A stretch of DNA of 57,139 bases from Calditrichia bacterium (GTDB lineage: Bacteria; Calditrichota; Calditrichia; RBG-13-44-9; J075). Of this stretch, positions 55 to 53,064 are shown piece by piece. Below the pieces are notes generated by a model. The model was not told where the DNA came from and searched no databases. It worked only from the letters and a program-made list of their open reading frames with translations. Positions within the stretch are counted from its first letter, which is position 1. Each line of letters opens with the position of its first letter. The DNA is taken from NCBI GenBank assembly GCA_028284905.1, contig JANQQU010000078.1, positions 1 through 57,139 of the forward strand, written 5' to 3'. The translations under genes and the position numbers were made by a program.

Positions 55-130
55 ACTACTTTATTGTACAATGGGGGTACGACTTAACAACACATAACAG
101 GGTTCAGAGTTAAAAAACTGCTCATCTGTT

Positions 131-163
131 CATTTGCCCATTTGAATATTTGCCCATTTACTC
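131..163. repeat. Solo copy of the TTTGCCCATTTG dispersed repeat
   Basis: Bases 131-150 are identical, over 20 bases, to the reverse complement of 48506-48525, the left inverted repeat of the four-helix-bundle cassette. The following bases (TGCCCATTTACTCA) also resemble the outer flank of that repeat. It abuts the 3' end of the minus-strand gene at 162. No four-helix-bundle gene accompanies this copy. Confidence 0.7.
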
Positions 164-31869: not shown

Positions 31870-31959
31870 GACTGCTCCTTTAATTAGTAATCAAACTTCA
31901 TTGCAGTATAATATTTTCGGGAACGATTTAAAATATATTTCTTAACCGGTGTTTTGCTT

Positions 31960-32092
31960 CGTTGTTCGTTGTTCGTTCTTCGTTAAACGCTATGTTAAAG
32001 TGGCTTTCAAATCCCCCCATTTCATGTCTTTCCGTTTGTCTAGCATAGGGATCCAGCCCAACTAAAAAACGATCAACGAACAACGAACAACG
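31960..32092. repeat. Empty inverted-repeat element of GTTGTTC heptamers
   Basis: CGTTGTTCGTTGTTCGTT (31960-31977) and its exact complement (32075-32092) bound 97 bases of unique sequence. The match continues inward for seven bases with two mismatches. Each arm is a tandem array of a 7-mer. The element lies 9 bases from the stop of the pncB-like gene and holds no gene. The 231-base gap 31870-32100 contains nothing else that I can see. Confidence 0.75.
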
Positions 32093-32100
32093 ATCAACAA

Positions 32101-47285: not shown

Positions 47286-48488
47286 ATGGCAAATCAACCG
47301 CAGGATCCGCAAACAGTTCGTAAAATTTCACGCCGTCTGAAGGTAGCGCTGGGTATCTCGATCATTATGCTCGGTGCGCTGGCTGCACTGTTTGCGCTGG
47401 GCAGCTACTTTTTCTTTATCCCATTTAGCAAACATACTTCACAGTTGGATCATTCCCTGCAAACGCTGCAGACCCTCAGCGATTTAAAGTATGAGGCGAC
47501 GGTTAGCAGCGATTCTACCCGGCGGGAAGAGATCGCCGAAAGGATTACGGCCTTGCAAGCAGAGATTCTCCGGGTAGAATCCTACCGGGAAAAATTAATG
47601 CAGGAAACCGCTACCCGGGCGGAAAACATTATCCGCATGTCGACATTTTTTGTTACCTCGGTTTCTTTCTTCTTTGGCATCTTCACCCTTGTGATTGGCT
47701 GGCTAAGCTATCGAAGATATGATGAATTAAAGCGAGAGCTGGAAGATCGTATCAAAGAACGGTATGAAATTAAAGAAGAGGTAGAAAACCAGAATGACTT
47801 GATCGACCAGCAGCGGAAAATGGTCAACAAAAGCCTGAAGGACTCGGAACAGGCGGCGGAAGTTCAGCAGAAAAAACTGGAAGAAATTCGTGATCAAATT
47901 AACGTCCAGCGAACCAATATTGATCAGCAAAAGAAAAACATGGACGACTGGCAAAAAACTTTCACATCGGAAGTAGAAGCGCAGCAGAGTAAGCTGAATG
48001 AAGCTTCCTGGGAATCAGAAAAGCTGATTGTAGAGCAAACCCGGAAAGTCACCGAACGCCTGCAGGAAATCGAGCGCCGAATGAAAGATAAGAGTAGCAA
48101 ACTTTCCGACGATATTCAGGAATTTAATCAGCAAATGGATGCGAATAATCGCCTGACAGTAGAAAACAGGCAATATATCCGAACCATCGCAGATGAATTC
48201 TATGGCTCTACAATTATCGAAATCCTTAGCGCCTTGCACGAAAGCGAAGTAATCACCGTCGAATCCTACGAGGGTTTAAAAACCCTGATGGCGGAAGCAC
48301 AATACCTGATTTCCCTCAATGATCCGGACCCGCAGGAACGCCAGAAGGCAATTTACGGTTTGTATGGTCTGGGAACCGGGAAAGCACTCTCCAAGCTCAA
48401 AATGGTAATGGAGAACCAGGAAGAAACCGCCGAACTGCGCATGCTGGCGCAGCGGGCTATATTGGAGATTGAGAAACGGGATGGGTAG
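47286..48488 (+). CDS. Membrane protein with long cytoplasmic coiled coil
   Basis: A protein of 400 residues. One N-terminal membrane helix (about 19-44), a short periplasmic helical region and a second helix (about 115-137) lead into a long charged coiled coil (about 145-290; rich in Gln, Glu and Lys, for example QQKKLEEIRDQINVQ). A C-terminal helical-repeat-like domain (about 310-400) closes it. The topology resembles chemoreceptors, but I see no MCP signalling tip motif. Its place after a kinase and two receivers suggests a sensor, a scaffold or an effector of the same pathway. I do not recognise the family. Confidence 0.7.
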   Translation: MANQPQDPQTVRKISRRLKVALGISIIMLGALAALFALGSYFFFIPFSKHTSQLDHSLQTLQTLSDLKYEATVSSDSTRREEIAERITALQAEILRVESYREKLMQETATRAENIIRMSTFFVTSVSFFFGIFTLVIGWLSYRRYDELKRELEDRIKERYEIKEEVENQNDLIDQQRKMVNKSLKDSEQAAEVQQKKLEEIRDQINVQRTNIDQQKKNMDDWQKTFTSEVEAQQSKLNEASWESEKLIVEQTRKVTERLQEIERRMKDKSSKLSDDIQEFNQQMDANNRLTVENRQYIRTIADEFYGSTIIEILSALHESEVITVESYEGLKTLMAEAQYLISLNDPDPQERQKAIYGLYGLGTGKALSKLKMVMENQEETAELRMLAQRAILEIEKRDG

Positions 48489-48505: not shown

Positions 48506-48530
48506 AATATTCAAATGGGCAAATGGGCAA
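48506..48530 (+). repeat. Left inverted repeat of the four-helix-bundle cassette
   Basis: Bases 48511-48530 are the exact reverse complement of 49096-49115. Extended to 48506-48530 and 49096-49120 the arms match at 24 of 25 positions. The core is two copies of the 8-mer CAAATGGG. Confidence 0.85.
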
Positions 48531-48640
48531 TTAATAGTTTTTGCAGATTTACAGATTTGCTCATTTGCAGATTTCTAAACTAAAATTCTAAAATTACCTG
48601 TTTCCTGGCAATTTGTATTAAAACTTACGCCGGGGAATAT

Positions 48641-49057
48641 ATGCTACCACCTCATCTGACTCATTATCAAACCTGGGAAAAAAGTGTATTTCTACGAATA
48701 CGGGAAGAATCTGTTTGGCAATTCTTTGCCTATCGCAAATCTTTGTTTTTGTATGAATTATGTTGGCATGACTGCGAAATGTTGCTCAAAGATTATCGGG
48801 GGAGACAAATAGCAAACCAATTAATTCGCAGTATGGGGTCGGTTTGTGCCAATATTGAAGAAGGTTATGGCAGAGGTTTACACAGCAAATCATATCTTCA
48901 GTTCCTTCGATATTCAATAGCTTCCGCAAAAGAGACAAAGGGCTGGTATTACAGGAGCCGCTACTTACTTTCAAATTCATTAGTAAAGCAACGCCTTGAA
49001 TTAATTTCAGAAATTATTGCATTGACGATTGTCGAACTAAACCGCAAAAAGGTATGA
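48641..49057 (+). CDS. Four-helix-bundle protein (23S rRNA intervening-sequence protein family)
   Basis: A protein of 138 residues. RGRQIANQLIRSMGSVCANIEEGYGRG (about residues 52-78) is the hallmark of the S23/intervening-sequence protein family, followed by LQFLRYSIASAKET and a C-terminal helix. Family members occur inside 23S rRNA intervening sequences or alone in intergenic DNA; the diversity-generating accessory protein Avd shares the fold. Basic residues suggest nucleic-acid binding. Here the gene lies between inverted repeats that could pair into a long stem, a design like the intervening-sequence stem. No reverse transcriptase or rRNA gene is nearby. The ATG at 48641 follows GGGGAATAT, a weak binding site. 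Confidence 0.85.
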   Translation: MLPPHLTHYQTWEKSVFLRIREESVWQFFAYRKSLFLYELCWHDCEMLLKDYRGRQIANQLIRSMGSVCANIEEGYGRGLHSKSYLQFLRYSIASAKETKGWYYRSRYLLSNSLVKQRLELISEIIALTIVELNRKKV

Positions 49058-49070
49058 AGAAGAAATAAGC

Positions 49071-49120
49071 AAATGGGCAAATCTGCAAATACAACTTGCC
49101 CATTTGCCCATTTGAAAATT
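49071..49120. repeat. Right inverted repeat of the four-helix-bundle cassette, with inner hairpin
   Basis: GCAAATGGGCAA (near 49072) and TTGCCCATTTGC (49096-49107) form a 12-bp hairpin on their own. The outer part, 49096-49120, is the partner of the left arm at 48506-48530. A partial copy, TTATTTGAAAATT, follows at about 49125. Confidence 0.85.
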
Positions 49121-49140
49121 TACTTATTTGAAAATTCAAC

Positions 49141-52100
49141 TTACTTCAGCAGTATCATCTTTTTCATCGAAACAAAATCATTCGCATTCAGACGATAGAT
49201 GTAAATACCACTGGCAACCTTCACACCAAAATCATTTGTGCCGTCCCAGGTTACCTCCTTGAATCCGGCAGTCTGCTTCGCATTCACTAATGTCTTAACC
49301 ATCTGGCCAAGCACGTTGTAGATGCGAATAGTGACATCGGCAGTTTCCTTTAGACCATACTTTAGCGTGGTCGTCGGGTTGAACGGATTCGGATAGTTCT
49401 GCTCAAGCACATACTCGGTCGGGACCAGCTCGGAATCTTCGATACCTAGCGCTATGCTATCCAGCGATACTACTGCACGGAAGTGATATTGATTAGCAGC
49501 ATCCGGCTGCCAGAGGCCGCCAGAGAAAGTATAGGCGCGCTCGTTGCCCACCGTATGATAAGGTATCCAGGTTTCACCAACAGGTCCAGGTGCGGTAATG
49601 AAACCGATAAAGAAATCACCCGTTAAATCGGCCAGGCTCGCAGCGTGGTCTCTTAAGTCCACACGAGTCATTGGCCGGGTATTGGCAAGGGTTGCTTCCG
49701 GCCAAACGTTAAACGGCGTAATTAAGTCGCTACCCGGCAGACCATTGTCTTCTGCCCAGACGTGTACTTCAATCGAGTCGAACGGGCGATTCACATCGGT
49801 GTAGGTTCTCAGCAGAATTGCACCAAGATCAGCCATGTAGCCCTGCGGTACACTGACTCTTACTGCGACGCCGTTTCCAGTGGTAATATTAGTAACGAAA
49901 TCCACTTGTGCATTGTCGTAGAAGAGGTGAGTACCAGCAACATACTCGAAGGTGTCGGCAGCGGCGCTGCTGTTGCCAAGTCCGTCACTTGCATCAAAAG
50001 TATAAGCAACATTGGCACCGGTTTCCTGTCCCGGCACGGTGTAGTAATAAGTATCATCATTCGAGCTGTCGGAAGCTGCGCTATTGTAGCTGCCGCCATC
50101 TACGGCATAGTGCACATTCGTGCTGCCAACGCCGGAAATGTCAATGATATCGGCTTGGCGGACAAAATCACCACTGGCGCCTTCAAAGAAGGCCGGGCCT
50201 TCATGCACGATGAGCGGGCCTTCCGTATCAGTATCAGCAGAGGTAATCATGACGTCGTCGATATACATGCCATCGACTTCATAACCGCCATCACTGAAGA
50301 AGCGGAAACGCACTTTCACATCGGCATTCCCGACGAATCCACTCAGTGAGTAAGTGTAGAGTTCCCAGGTATCGAACCCTTCGCCATCAAAGGTATCGAG
50401 ATTTACCCAGTTGCTGCCATCAGCAGATGCTTCGATATACATATAGTCAAAACCCTGCTCGATGTTATAGCGGGCATAAAAAGACAGCTCTGCACCAAAA
50501 GAAGCGGAGAGATCCACGCCATTGGCCATTGTCGCAGTGATGTTCAGATTCGGGGCGTAATTACCACCGGGGCTTTCGGTTAGGGAGTGGGTCGGGGAGT
50601 TTGCAAACTGTTCGGTCAACGCCCAGCTGCCGGTCAAGGTCCATTTGCTTACACCACTTTCAAAGTCATCCGTGAAAACAACGCCAGGATCGCTGTAGTC
50701 GCTGTTCGGCGTAGGAGTAAGGTCTGCAACGAAAGTGTTATTGAGATCTTCACTGGTTTCATCCGCACCGGTGACGCCATTACCACCACTGGTGGTTTGG
50801 GCACCTTCAGTGAAATCGATTCGCTGCGAGGAAAATCCAGCATTGTTGGAGCCAAGGGCGGGCACCTGGGAACCGATGTCGGTATCTGGCAGGTAAGCGG
50901 ACCCATCCGTGTCGACGTCAGGGCCATCTATCACAACGCCGGTCTTGTCCACCTGCTCATTATTCGCCGGGGAGGTGTCGTCATAGATGACATAATCGAC
51001 ATCAGCAACCAGATCGCTTAAACCATCCCAGTAATAAAGAATAAGCACTTCATCACCGCCAGTCAGCAAGCTGCCGCCGCCATCATCAATTAAACCCGGA
51101 CGCGCTTCGCGCATATTCGCTACGTCATTAGGATTATCGGTGCCATCTTCGTGCAATTCATAGGTCGGATCCACACCGTAGAGGTCAGCAAAGAGGGAAT
51201 CGCCATTTAGAGCAACGGTTTGAAACTCACCAGGCGCAATCGAAGCACCTTCCGGGAAGCGGGCATGCCAGTCGCCAAAGCCGCCACCGCCGCCTTCACC
51301 AGCCCCCAGAACAATCTGATAATAGAAAGTGGGGCCACCCTGGAAGGTTGCATCGGTGAGATAGTAGTTCGTCAGATCTACCGGCATCGGACCGGGATTG
51401 TAAATTTCAACAAATTCGCCGCCAGTCGGTGTCACTACGAATTCGGAAATCAGCAACTTTTTCGGCACTTCCGGGTCGACCACCTGTCCGCGAATTTCGC
51501 CGGAGGGCACCGAGTCGGTATGCACGTTAATGTAGATGTTGCCAGCCAGCAGTTCATCCACCAGGGCCGAAGTTAACGGCTCAGTATCGCCGCTTGTCCA
51601 GACGCCGGCAATCGTAGTATCGCCAGCGCTTACGCCGGTAACGATCGTCTTCACCACGCCGCCATTCGCACCAGCTGGCGCATTGTGGAAATGCATGGCA
51701 TTAACGTTACCTACCAGATCGCGAACATGGATCTCGTAACTTAACTCGGTACCTGCGCCATTGAGGGTCATACGGGCGCTACCGGTGCCGGGGCTGTCCC
51801 CTGCAGGTACTTCCTGGCCGGCATTAAGATAGGCCGCTTTCTCTGTCACCGGTCCCTCATCTCCACCTGGCGCATACAGGGAAATAAAGCGTGCGGAAGC
51901 GCCGGCAACAGTTTGTCTTACCACGGAGTTCGTTGTGGGATCAACTTCATGGACGCCAGCGCCATTGGTGACCAGTAAATTGCCATTACCCAATTCCCAA
52001 ACTCCGCGCAGGCCGGTAACAGCGTTTACGGTATTTAGCAGGTTACCGCTGGCATCAAAAATACTTACACCGGAAGGATTGGAAAAATTTGCCACGGCAA

Positions 52101-53064
52101 TATTTCCACCGGAAATTTCACTTAGCTGCTCCGGAAAATTAATGCCGGTGGCAAAGTCGGATAGATAATTTCCATTAAGGTCATACTGATGTACTGCATC
52201 AGAGGAACCACCGGTTACCAAAACATTATCACTGCGGATAATAATGCCCCAGGGCGAACTTAATCCACCCGCGCCATTTGTAATAAAATTTCCCTTGTAA
52301 TCACCATTCAGATCGAATTCTGCAATCGCATGTGCATTGGCATTGCTGGCAACTGTAACCAATAAATTTTCGGAGCTGGGATGATAGGCATGGCCGCGCA
52401 TATTATCCAGGATAGCGGTATTCTGGCCTCCAGCCGGTGCAAGCACCTTCAGGTAAGTGCCACTGGTATCAAACTGCTGCACCTGATCTTCTCCCGCCTG
52501 GTCAGAGACACTAAGATCACCCGTAGGCATTAATACTGCCTGAATCGGCGTAGTCAAATTGGTATCACTGGGAACAAAATCCAGGTCGATAACTTCACCG
52601 GTTGCCATATCAAAAAGCATTACCCGGTCCCCGGTAGATTCCGGAATCATCAGCATGCTGTCGCTGGCAACTTCACTTAAGGGGCGTAGCTTAACCTGGC
52701 CAATATGGGCATTTTCCACCCGGTCGTTGCCATAAGTGATTCGAGCGTTGCCGGCATCATATAAATTGCGGATATCAGCAAATTTTCCGATACTGCCGCC
52801 CTGGGCGGGATGGGCAAAATTCCGAATAACACCATACAGCGGTTGATTACCTTCAATTCCGTAAACCTCAATTATCAAGCTATTGGGTACAAAAATCTGC
52901 ACAGGCAGATCCAGTGCAATTGCCGCCTGCTTACCGGCAAGAACGGACTGTGGATTTTCCTCCGCCTGTTCCATTAATTGCTGCAATTCATTTTCCCGGG
53001 ATAATCCCGAACTAATGAATAAAAATAGTAGCAACAAAATAGCATAGTAGCGTCTACTTGTCAT
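49141..53064 (-). CDS. Giant secreted lamin-tail/CHRD protein with type IX sorting tail
   Basis: A protein of 1307 residues. A signal peptide (to about 22) leads into a beta-propeller-like region of about 300 residues (NHL-type repeats such as LVTGGSSDAVHQYDLNGNY). A CHRD domain (about 410-530; AMHFHNAPAGANGG, YINVHT) follows, then a lamin tail domain (about 535-670; LLISEFVVTPTGGEFVEIYN). Further beta-sandwich modules include an immune-inhibitor-A/MAM-like domain (about 850-990; FESGVSKW). The last 85 residues are a type A sorting tail (NYPNPFNP, ASGIYIYRL). It is likely a surface or secreted adhesin-like protein of unknown ligand. It is convergent with the cassette and not obviously in an operon. 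Confidence 0.9.
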   Translation of the reverse strand: MTSRRYYAILLLLFLFISSGLSRENELQQLMEQAEENPQSVLAGKQAAIALDLPVQIFVPNSLIIEVYGIEGNQPLYGVIRNFAHPAQGGSIGKFADIRNLYDAGNARITYGNDRVENAHIGQVKLRPLSEVASDSMLMIPESTGDRVMLFDMATGEVIDLDFVPSDTNLTTPIQAVLMPTGDLSVSDQAGEDQVQQFDTSGTYLKVLAPAGGQNTAILDNMRGHAYHPSSENLLVTVASNANAHAIAEFDLNGDYKGNFITNGAGGLSSPWGIIIRSDNVLVTGGSSDAVHQYDLNGNYLSDFATGINFPEQLSEISGGNIAVANFSNPSGVSIFDASGNLLNTVNAVTGLRGVWELGNGNLLVTNGAGVHEVDPTTNSVVRQTVAGASARFISLYAPGGDEGPVTEKAAYLNAGQEVPAGDSPGTGSARMTLNGAGTELSYEIHVRDLVGNVNAMHFHNAPAGANGGVVKTIVTGVSAGDTTIAGVWTSGDTEPLTSALVDELLAGNIYINVHTDSVPSGEIRGQVVDPEVPKKLLISEFVVTPTGGEFVEIYNPGPMPVDLTNYYLTDATFQGGPTFYYQIVLGAGEGGGGGFGDWHARFPEGASIAPGEFQTVALNGDSLFADLYGVDPTYELHEDGTDNPNDVANMREARPGLIDDGGGSLLTGGDEVLILYYWDGLSDLVADVDYVIYDDTSPANNEQVDKTGVVIDGPDVDTDGSAYLPDTDIGSQVPALGSNNAGFSSQRIDFTEGAQTTSGGNGVTGADETSEDLNNTFVADLTPTPNSDYSDPGVVFTDDFESGVSKWTLTGSWALTEQFANSPTHSLTESPGGNYAPNLNITATMANGVDLSASFGAELSFYARYNIEQGFDYMYIEASADGSNWVNLDTFDGEGFDTWELYTYSLSGFVGNADVKVRFRFFSDGGYEVDGMYIDDVMITSADTDTEGPLIVHEGPAFFEGASGDFVRQADIIDISGVGSTNVHYAVDGGSYNSAASDSSNDDTYYYTVPGQETGANVAYTFDASDGLGNSSAAADTFEYVAGTHLFYDNAQVDFVTNITTGNGVAVRVSVPQGYMADLGAILLRTYTDVNRPFDSIEVHVWAEDNGLPGSDLITPFNVWPEATLANTRPMTRVDLRDHAASLADLTGDFFIGFITAPGPVGETWIPYHTVGNERAYTFSGGLWQPDAANQYHFRAVVSLDSIALGIEDSELVPTEYVLEQNYPNPFNPTTTLKYGLKETADVTIRIYNVLGQMVKTLVNAKQTAGFKEVTWDGTNDFGVKVASGIYIYRLNANDFVSMKKMILLK

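Follow-up and report, generated by a model that had tools for sequence, protein, structure and literature searches.

Inverted short-unit arrays around a four-helix-bundle gene: a likely family of intervening-sequence-like mobile elements with gene-less copies

In the genome of a Calditrichia bacterium, a gene for a four-helix-bundle (4HB) protein lies between inverted repeats, and copies of the repeat without the gene occur elsewhere in the same DNA. The arrangement raises the question whether gene and repeats form one mobile unit, and what the gene-less copies are. The window, i.e. the whole stretch of DNA that was analysed, comprises 57,139 nucleotides (contig JANQQU010000078.1). From its letters alone, a preliminary description had proposed a mobile cassette of the type found as intervening sequences (IVSs) in 23S rRNA, here residing in intergenic DNA.

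The geometry on which this proposal rested was confirmed. Positions 48511-48530 (TCAAATGGGCAAATGGGCAA) are the exact reverse complement of 49096-49115, and the sole gene between these arms is a 138-aa 4HB open reading frame (48641-49057), itself placed between convergent genes at 47286-48488 (+) and 49141-53064 (-). A perfect 12-mer (48563-48574/49079-49090) is part of a second, nested inverted pair (48547-48576/49061-49090, 87% over 30 nt), and a wider inverted pair extends over 48497-48539/49087-49129 (81% over 43 nt). The exact arm copy reported at 131-150 (AATATTCAAATGGGCAAATG) was found as well. Local alignment of the upstream flank with the reverse-complemented downstream flank gave a score of 42, corresponding to z = 15 relative to shuffles. 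The arms are not a unique 25-mer; they consist of an 8-bp unit repeated in tandem, (C)AAATGGG/GCARATGA, where (C)AAATGGG has the variants GCAGATTT and GCAAATGA. The gene lies between inverted arrays of the 8-bp unit GCAAATGG. At either end of the gene, two arrays of opposite orientation, one plus and one minus, form a small hairpin. The features are as follows:

130..161 (-): solo (gene-less) array, unit family of the window arms
31959..32093 (no strand assigned): solo palindromic element with 7-bp unit arms (AACGAAC/TTCGTTG), inner 83 nt, no gene
48506..48530 (+): outer arm on the 5' side, built of 8-bp units in tandem, (CAAATGGG)n, rich in G on the sense strand of the gene, exact inverse of 49096-49115
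48540..48575 (-): inner array on the 5' side, made of AAATCTGC/GCAAATGAGC units, opposite in orientation to the outer arm and forming a hairpin with it
48576..48631 (+): AT-rich leader, equal layout in the other eight cassettes of the genome
48632..48637 (+): GGGGAA, ribosome-binding-like motif, 3 nt before the ATG
48641..49057 (+): gene for the 138-aa 4HB protein (PF05635 23S_rRNA_IVP, TIGR02436), predicted pI 9.5
49063..49092 (+): inner array on the 3' side (GCAAATGGGCAAATCTGCAAAT), inverse of 48547-48576
49096..49131 (-): outer arm on the 3' side, inverse of its 5' counterpart

Folded as RNA, the cassette reached -170.8 kcal/mol, compared with -141.6 +/- 6.8 kcal/mol for shuffles. In the predicted structure, the arms pair into one long stem that holds the gene in its loop. 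A defining trait of IVSs, inverted ends able to form a stem around an S23p reading frame, is therefore present.

Profile searches placed the window protein in PF05635 (47.2 bits, cut-off 33.8) and TIGR02436 (57.4 bits, cut-off 24), and no Pfam family other than PF05635 matched the gene. The structural model is a confident four-helix bundle (pLDDT 95.9), which in fold comparisons matched 2gsc (Z 17.4), 2rld (Z 16.4) and Avd, a protein of diversity-generating retroelements (DGRs), with which it shares the fold (Z 13.1). Unlike Avd, the window gene has no adjacent reverse transcriptase or variable-repeat cassette. The 4HB protein is under strong purifying selection (dN/dS about 0.1-0.15) and has no known catalytic motif. 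To our knowledge, structures exist for S23p/IVP proteins and their function is not known. We found no sign of phage carriage: the window protein had no match in viral contigs, and two other family members had none in phage records. Several PF05635 copies (G015:C111, G031:C61, G016:C163 and others) contain internal stop codons, as expected of decaying mobile elements.

The window copy is one of nine PF05635 genes in the 8.55-Mb genome, where the other family proteins have only 17-30% identity to the first. All nine genes share the same order of parts: an upstream array, a leader, GGGG(G)A before the ATG, and an inverted array right after the stop codon. The motif before the ATG is present in 9/9 cassette genes versus 2/284 other ORFs. 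The cassette genes that carry it (L001-L007, L009 and the window copy) are very divergent, and relatives have other motifs. Each cassette has its own 7- or 8-bp unit (AGTTCAG, TTAGGGGA, TAAGGCC-like, AGTTATC/TAACTGA, a longer GC-rich unit, GGAATGC, CCAATGT, CAAATGGG and GCAGATGA), so that arms differ widely within this one genome. The arrays of L002 and L003 were missed by the repeat finder and recognised by eye, and L003 fails the strict arm test described below. At a further locus (L085, G000 C52:89801-90011), AGTTCAG arms surround arrays of the AAATGGGC family, a nested insertion of array families.

In order to see how general the arms are, we compared the upstream flank with the reverse complement of the downstream flank for 81 family members, drawn from the phylum and from two Chloroflexi, counting arms as matched at z>4. 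Matched inverted arms were present in 70% of these genes, compared with 2.9% when flanks were swapped between genes and 6.4% for 156 other genes from the same loci. By this strict test about 30% of the family genes are armless, including several with short arrays recognisable by eye. The best period was 7, 8 or 14 in 51/55 arms, and in 50/53 cases the 5' arm contained more G than C on the sense strand of the gene.

The repeat unit is not independent of the protein. Across genomes, protein similarity predicted arm similarity (Mantel r 0.30, reached in 0/1000 permutations), although the correlation is modest. When the 7/8-bp label was placed on a maximum-likelihood tree built from 68 proteins, 8 changes were needed versus 16.7 after shuffling, with none of 500 shuffles as low. 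The window and L009 proteins are 56% identical, and their units are GCAAATGG and GCAGATGA. Outside the phylum, the nearest proteins found belong to the Chloroflexota loci L101, L102, L159 and L170, with units GCAAATCG, GCGAATCA, GCGAATCT and GCAAATGG; the window clade keeps GCRAATSR-like 8-mers both in this genome and in these Chloroflexota, and more distant Chloroflexota relatives have heptamers. Both the length of the unit (7 or 8) and its sequence go with the protein phylogeny, across phylum borders as well. We infer that this co-variation is the trace to be expected of a repeat-recognising protein, for which there are no binding data.

The preliminary description had suggested comparing homologous sites with and without the cassette. 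The window locus itself does not allow this, because none of 39 relatives has an orthologue of its upstream gene, and there is no orthologous locus to compare. This upstream neighbour (47286-48488) is a 400-aa membrane/coiled-coil gene without Pfam match, and the phylum sample contains no orthologue of it. For related cassettes, however, homologous sites were found both filled and empty, as in MITEs and other transposons with terminal inverted repeats, with arms gained or lost together with the gene. In Nostoc plasmids, a junction between the 441-bp and 288-bp genes of an operon contains a cassette in L147, L148 and L152 and is empty in L149, L153, L154, L155 and L156. A second junction has a different cassette in L149 and is empty in the other plasmids. 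The empty Nostoc site consists of 3 bp between the genes and has no array, and therefore arms and gene came together. In Picosynechococcus PCC 7003, a cassette lies between cas10 and cmr3, where PCC 7002 has 12 bp. In both genera the empty sites lack arrays, arms and gene being absent together. The cassettes of L147 and L148 are 99.5% identical, and the adjoining genes are 92.5% and 91.7% identical; the cassette is therefore younger than its surroundings.

The Picosynechococcus cassette is on a plasmid (L143:3001-3357) and falls within a type III-B CRISPR operon. A large-scale CRISPR screen lists the 23S rRNA IVP domain among CRISPR-linked proteins (PMC10910872), a link that may reflect such insertions or arrays.

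Transposons of that kind would also have a target-site duplication of fixed length; here the flanks at one Nostoc junction (GGTTCTA|AATC...GATT|CTA) suggest CTA at most, and none is clear elsewhere. Cassettes are in the sense of the upstream gene in 89/99 cases versus 719/930 background pairs (p 0.003), which fits either a process acting on transcripts or a dependence on read-through transcription. Surviving sites are intergenic, often at the stop codon of the upstream gene and in its sense. Judged from these comparisons, the family moves as a unit with its arms and leaves solo derivatives. The proposal of an IVS-type mobile cassette in intergenic DNA is thereby supported for the family, by the architecture common to all nine cassettes, by the empty sites and by members in 23S rRNA; for the window copy, movement is only inferred, and so is the binding of the protein to its own stem.

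The empty sites also bear on two readings in which gene and arms do not travel together. The arrays might be passive slippage repeats and the 4HB gene the sole mobile part, inserting into the loops of existing palindromes. The wide variation of arms among the cassettes of one genome, the abundance of solo palindromes and the position of IVSs in an rRNA hairpin would suit such passive arrays. We nevertheless regard this as very improbable, since the Nostoc and Picosynechococcus empty sites have no array, unit length and sequence follow the protein tree, and genomes without the gene are almost free of arrays. A pre-existing hairpin as the target of a bare gene is rejected in view of the array-free empty sites.

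Alternatively, the gene could be a resident with a regulatory stem, whose protein binds to arrays in the mRNA of its own gene and in further mRNAs, without present mobility, in line with the regulon that MacGregor 2015 proposed for TAACTGA repeats. Arms that flank the ORF and fold in RNA, strong purifying selection and the intercistronic position of arrays are all compatible with regulation. The presence or absence of the cassette between close plasmids, its age, younger than that of its flanks, and the disruption of a 4HB gene by a solo element (see below) show movement, and we consider this reading unlikely. Regulation may exist on top of mobility, not in its place.

Returning to the mobile unit with its own arms, we looked at the copies without a gene. 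An 18-mer of the repeat (AAATGGGCAAATGGGCAA) occurs 144 times in the 8.55-Mb genome versus 0 times for the same word read backwards, and is nearly absent from 39 relatives (3 matches, all in one). With dispersed gene-less palindromic copies (these 144 and the solo arrays), the window repeat behaves as required of repeats of the REP type. Solo palindromes are common. For 13/19 solo arrays in the window genome, the match to an arm of one of its own nine cassettes exceeded the match to 95% or more of the random arm sets that were drawn from other genomes. The solo element at 31959-32093 has a C6 run inside its 83 nt (G6A on the other strand) and is perhaps a gene-less remnant of another cassette type. 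In a 400-kb sample, no GGGGGA leader motif was found on the G-rich strand of solo elements.

In a comparison of 13 genomes from the phylum, intergenic 7/8-bp arrays became denser as the number of family genes rose (Spearman rho 0.96, p 4e-7). Array density was 0-0.9 per 100 kb without the gene and 3-14 per 100 kb where there were at least 8 copies; a closed genome that has 5 copies had 1.0 per 100 kb. The densities come from partial DNA samples of related genomes, without correction for phylogeny or assembly quality, and the p value should not be taken literally. Arms in large numbers without a link to this gene family would, according to the preliminary description, have refuted its proposal. 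They are indeed many, but linked to the family, because the density of arrays follows the number of genes, and the sequence of the unit follows the protein.

Solo elements insert too: in L152, a gene-less element of 185 nt with matching heptamer arms interrupts a 4HB gene that is intact in L148. The REP-like solo arrays are non-autonomous copies of the element, a conclusion for which one insertion is demonstrated and which otherwise rests on statistics.

The resemblance to REPs and REPINs with their RAYTs (TnpA_REP, Y1) is considerable. Both systems have a gene within inverted repeats, many intergenic gene-less palindromes and a species-specific repeat. They differ in that the protein here is a four-helix bundle without Y1 transposase motif, and in that the arms are tandem arrays, whereas REPs are single hairpins; the systems coexist in genomes with different repeats. 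One might still suppose that host Y1 transposases move REP-like arrays and that the 4HB gene merely travels along or has an accessory role. The numbers of Y1_Tnp and 4HB genes do correlate (rho 0.60; partial 0.59 after genome size), and REPs are likewise palindromic, with solo copies that outnumber the gene. Yet no Y1 (HUH) transposase lies between the window repeats, the Y1 genes of the genome being elsewhere. Y1 genes (L195-L214) are bounded by their own, quite different, classic REP hairpins (matched arms in 13/20) and not by 7-8-bp arrays. Moreover, 4HB genomes without detected Y1 exist (G018 with 6 copies; G025, 96% complete, with 2 copies), and the unit tracks the 4HB protein. We therefore judge movement by Y1 enzymes to be unlikely, but would still give it some weight. 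RAYT/REP as the same system is rejected, given the different REPs of the Y1 genes; a helper role is not excluded, as gene numbers correlate. Two independent repeat-and-protein systems, Y1/REP and 4HB/array, stand side by side in the same genomes.

The 4HB family is known from IVSs in 23S rRNA, and the relation of these to the intergenic cassettes can be addressed directly. Two family members, L077 and L137, lie within 23S rRNA genes (RF02541), both at the same place in helix 45, with arms of CAAGGTT-type heptamers that start inside the rRNA helix. They alone have a 23S location; the window copy is between two protein genes. The 23S IVSs of Coxiella and Leptospira (PMC4990558) resemble the window cassette in protein family and in having an ORF in the loop of a stem formed by inverted ends, and in the Coxiella IVS, GACAGAT heptamers in tandem precede the S23p gene (PMC4990558). 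Differences are that the window copy and nearly all others here are intergenic and not in rRNA, and that extended 7-8-bp arrays as arms and many solo copies are undescribed for IVSs in the literature found. Because L077 and L137 in helix 45 have the same kind of heptamer arms, the intergenic cassettes and the classical IVSs look like one family, with the IVSs as its copies in the rRNA niche.

We consider it likely that these genes and arrays constitute an IVS-like family of mobile elements, made up of a basic 4HB protein gene with inverted short-unit arrays and of solo arrays as non-autonomous copies; recognition of the arrays is inferred. An autonomous copy would be the gene for a basic 4HB protein (23S-IVS/S23p) bounded by inverted arrays whose unit is 7 or 8 bp according to protein clade. 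In the transcript, the arms would form a long stem whose loop holds the gene. As DNA, they move together with the gene, which the empty sites in relatives show, and gene-less solo arrays would relate to it as REPs do to RAYTs. The protein probably recognises its own array as an RNA or single-stranded DNA stem and mobilise or keep it; the cutting or joining enzyme is not identified. The IVSs of 23S rRNA would be family copies that landed in rRNA helices. Recognition of cognate arrays by the 4HB protein is most likely, but in the absence of binding data it is inferred, from three points: unit and protein co-evolve, the protein is basic, and its fold is that of Avd, which is RNA-bound in DGRs.

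How such an element is copied is less clear. An Avd-like 4HB protein could bring the stem RNA to a reverse transcriptase, the copy being written at intercistronic DNA sites. Such retro-mobility would agree with the fold match to Avd in the DGR ribonucleoprotein, with the bias towards the sense of the upstream gene and with insertion in rRNA, but 4HB and reverse transcriptase numbers correlate weakly (rho 0.27), and RVT_1 is absent from the family-rich, near-complete genomes G017 (closed, 9 copies), G034 (12), G021 (8) and G008 (closed, 5). We regard this route as quite improbable. An RVT_1 reverse transcriptase as obligatory partner is rejected on the grounds of its absence from these four genomes. 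Over retro-mobility we slightly prefer a route through a DNA hairpin, served by host functions or by the protein itself; which activity cuts and joins is unknown.

The proposed element may also account for repeats described elsewhere. Arrays of TAACTGA are known from Beggiatoaceae, cyanobacteria and Bacteroidetes (PMC4679880), and arrays of GGGAATC from Xanthomonas and of GGGGA(C/T)T from Nostoc (PMC4692102). Like the arrays studied here, these STRR and heptamer arrays are dispersed, intergenic and often in inverted pairs, and one cassette of the present genome (L004) has TAACTGA-type arms around its 4HB gene. No partner protein or mobile element has been reported for them (PMC4679880, PMC4692102), whereas the arrays here are tied to the 4HB gene. 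The Xanthomonas and Nostoc study saw no general link with mobile elements (PMC4692102), and it has been proposed that a repeat-binding protein might itself be a mobile element (PMC4679880). We found no literature linking heptamer-type arrays to the PF05635 family, but only open-access papers were covered and an earlier description cannot be excluded. The chances seem to us even that the family represents a new class of mobile elements, in which a non-transposase 4HB protein recognises and, through co-evolution, specifies a 7- or 8-bp unit and creates and spreads inverted arrays. This would explain the 23S IVSs and many STRR, TAACTGA and GGGAATC arrays across phyla whose origin is unexplained.

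A gene known until now mainly as an unexplained passenger of ribosomal-RNA inserts thus appears to belong to a genome-wide element for which rRNA intervening sequences would be only one niche. The spread of arrays in cyanobacteria, Beggiatoaceae, Bacteroidetes and Xanthomonas, previously without a mechanism, can now be tied to the S23p/IVP family. Arrays and family are joined by a code-like match of protein clade to repeat unit, by empty sites and by solo derivatives, and the element is probably the source of many unexplained 7-8-letter repeat arrays in bacterial genomes.
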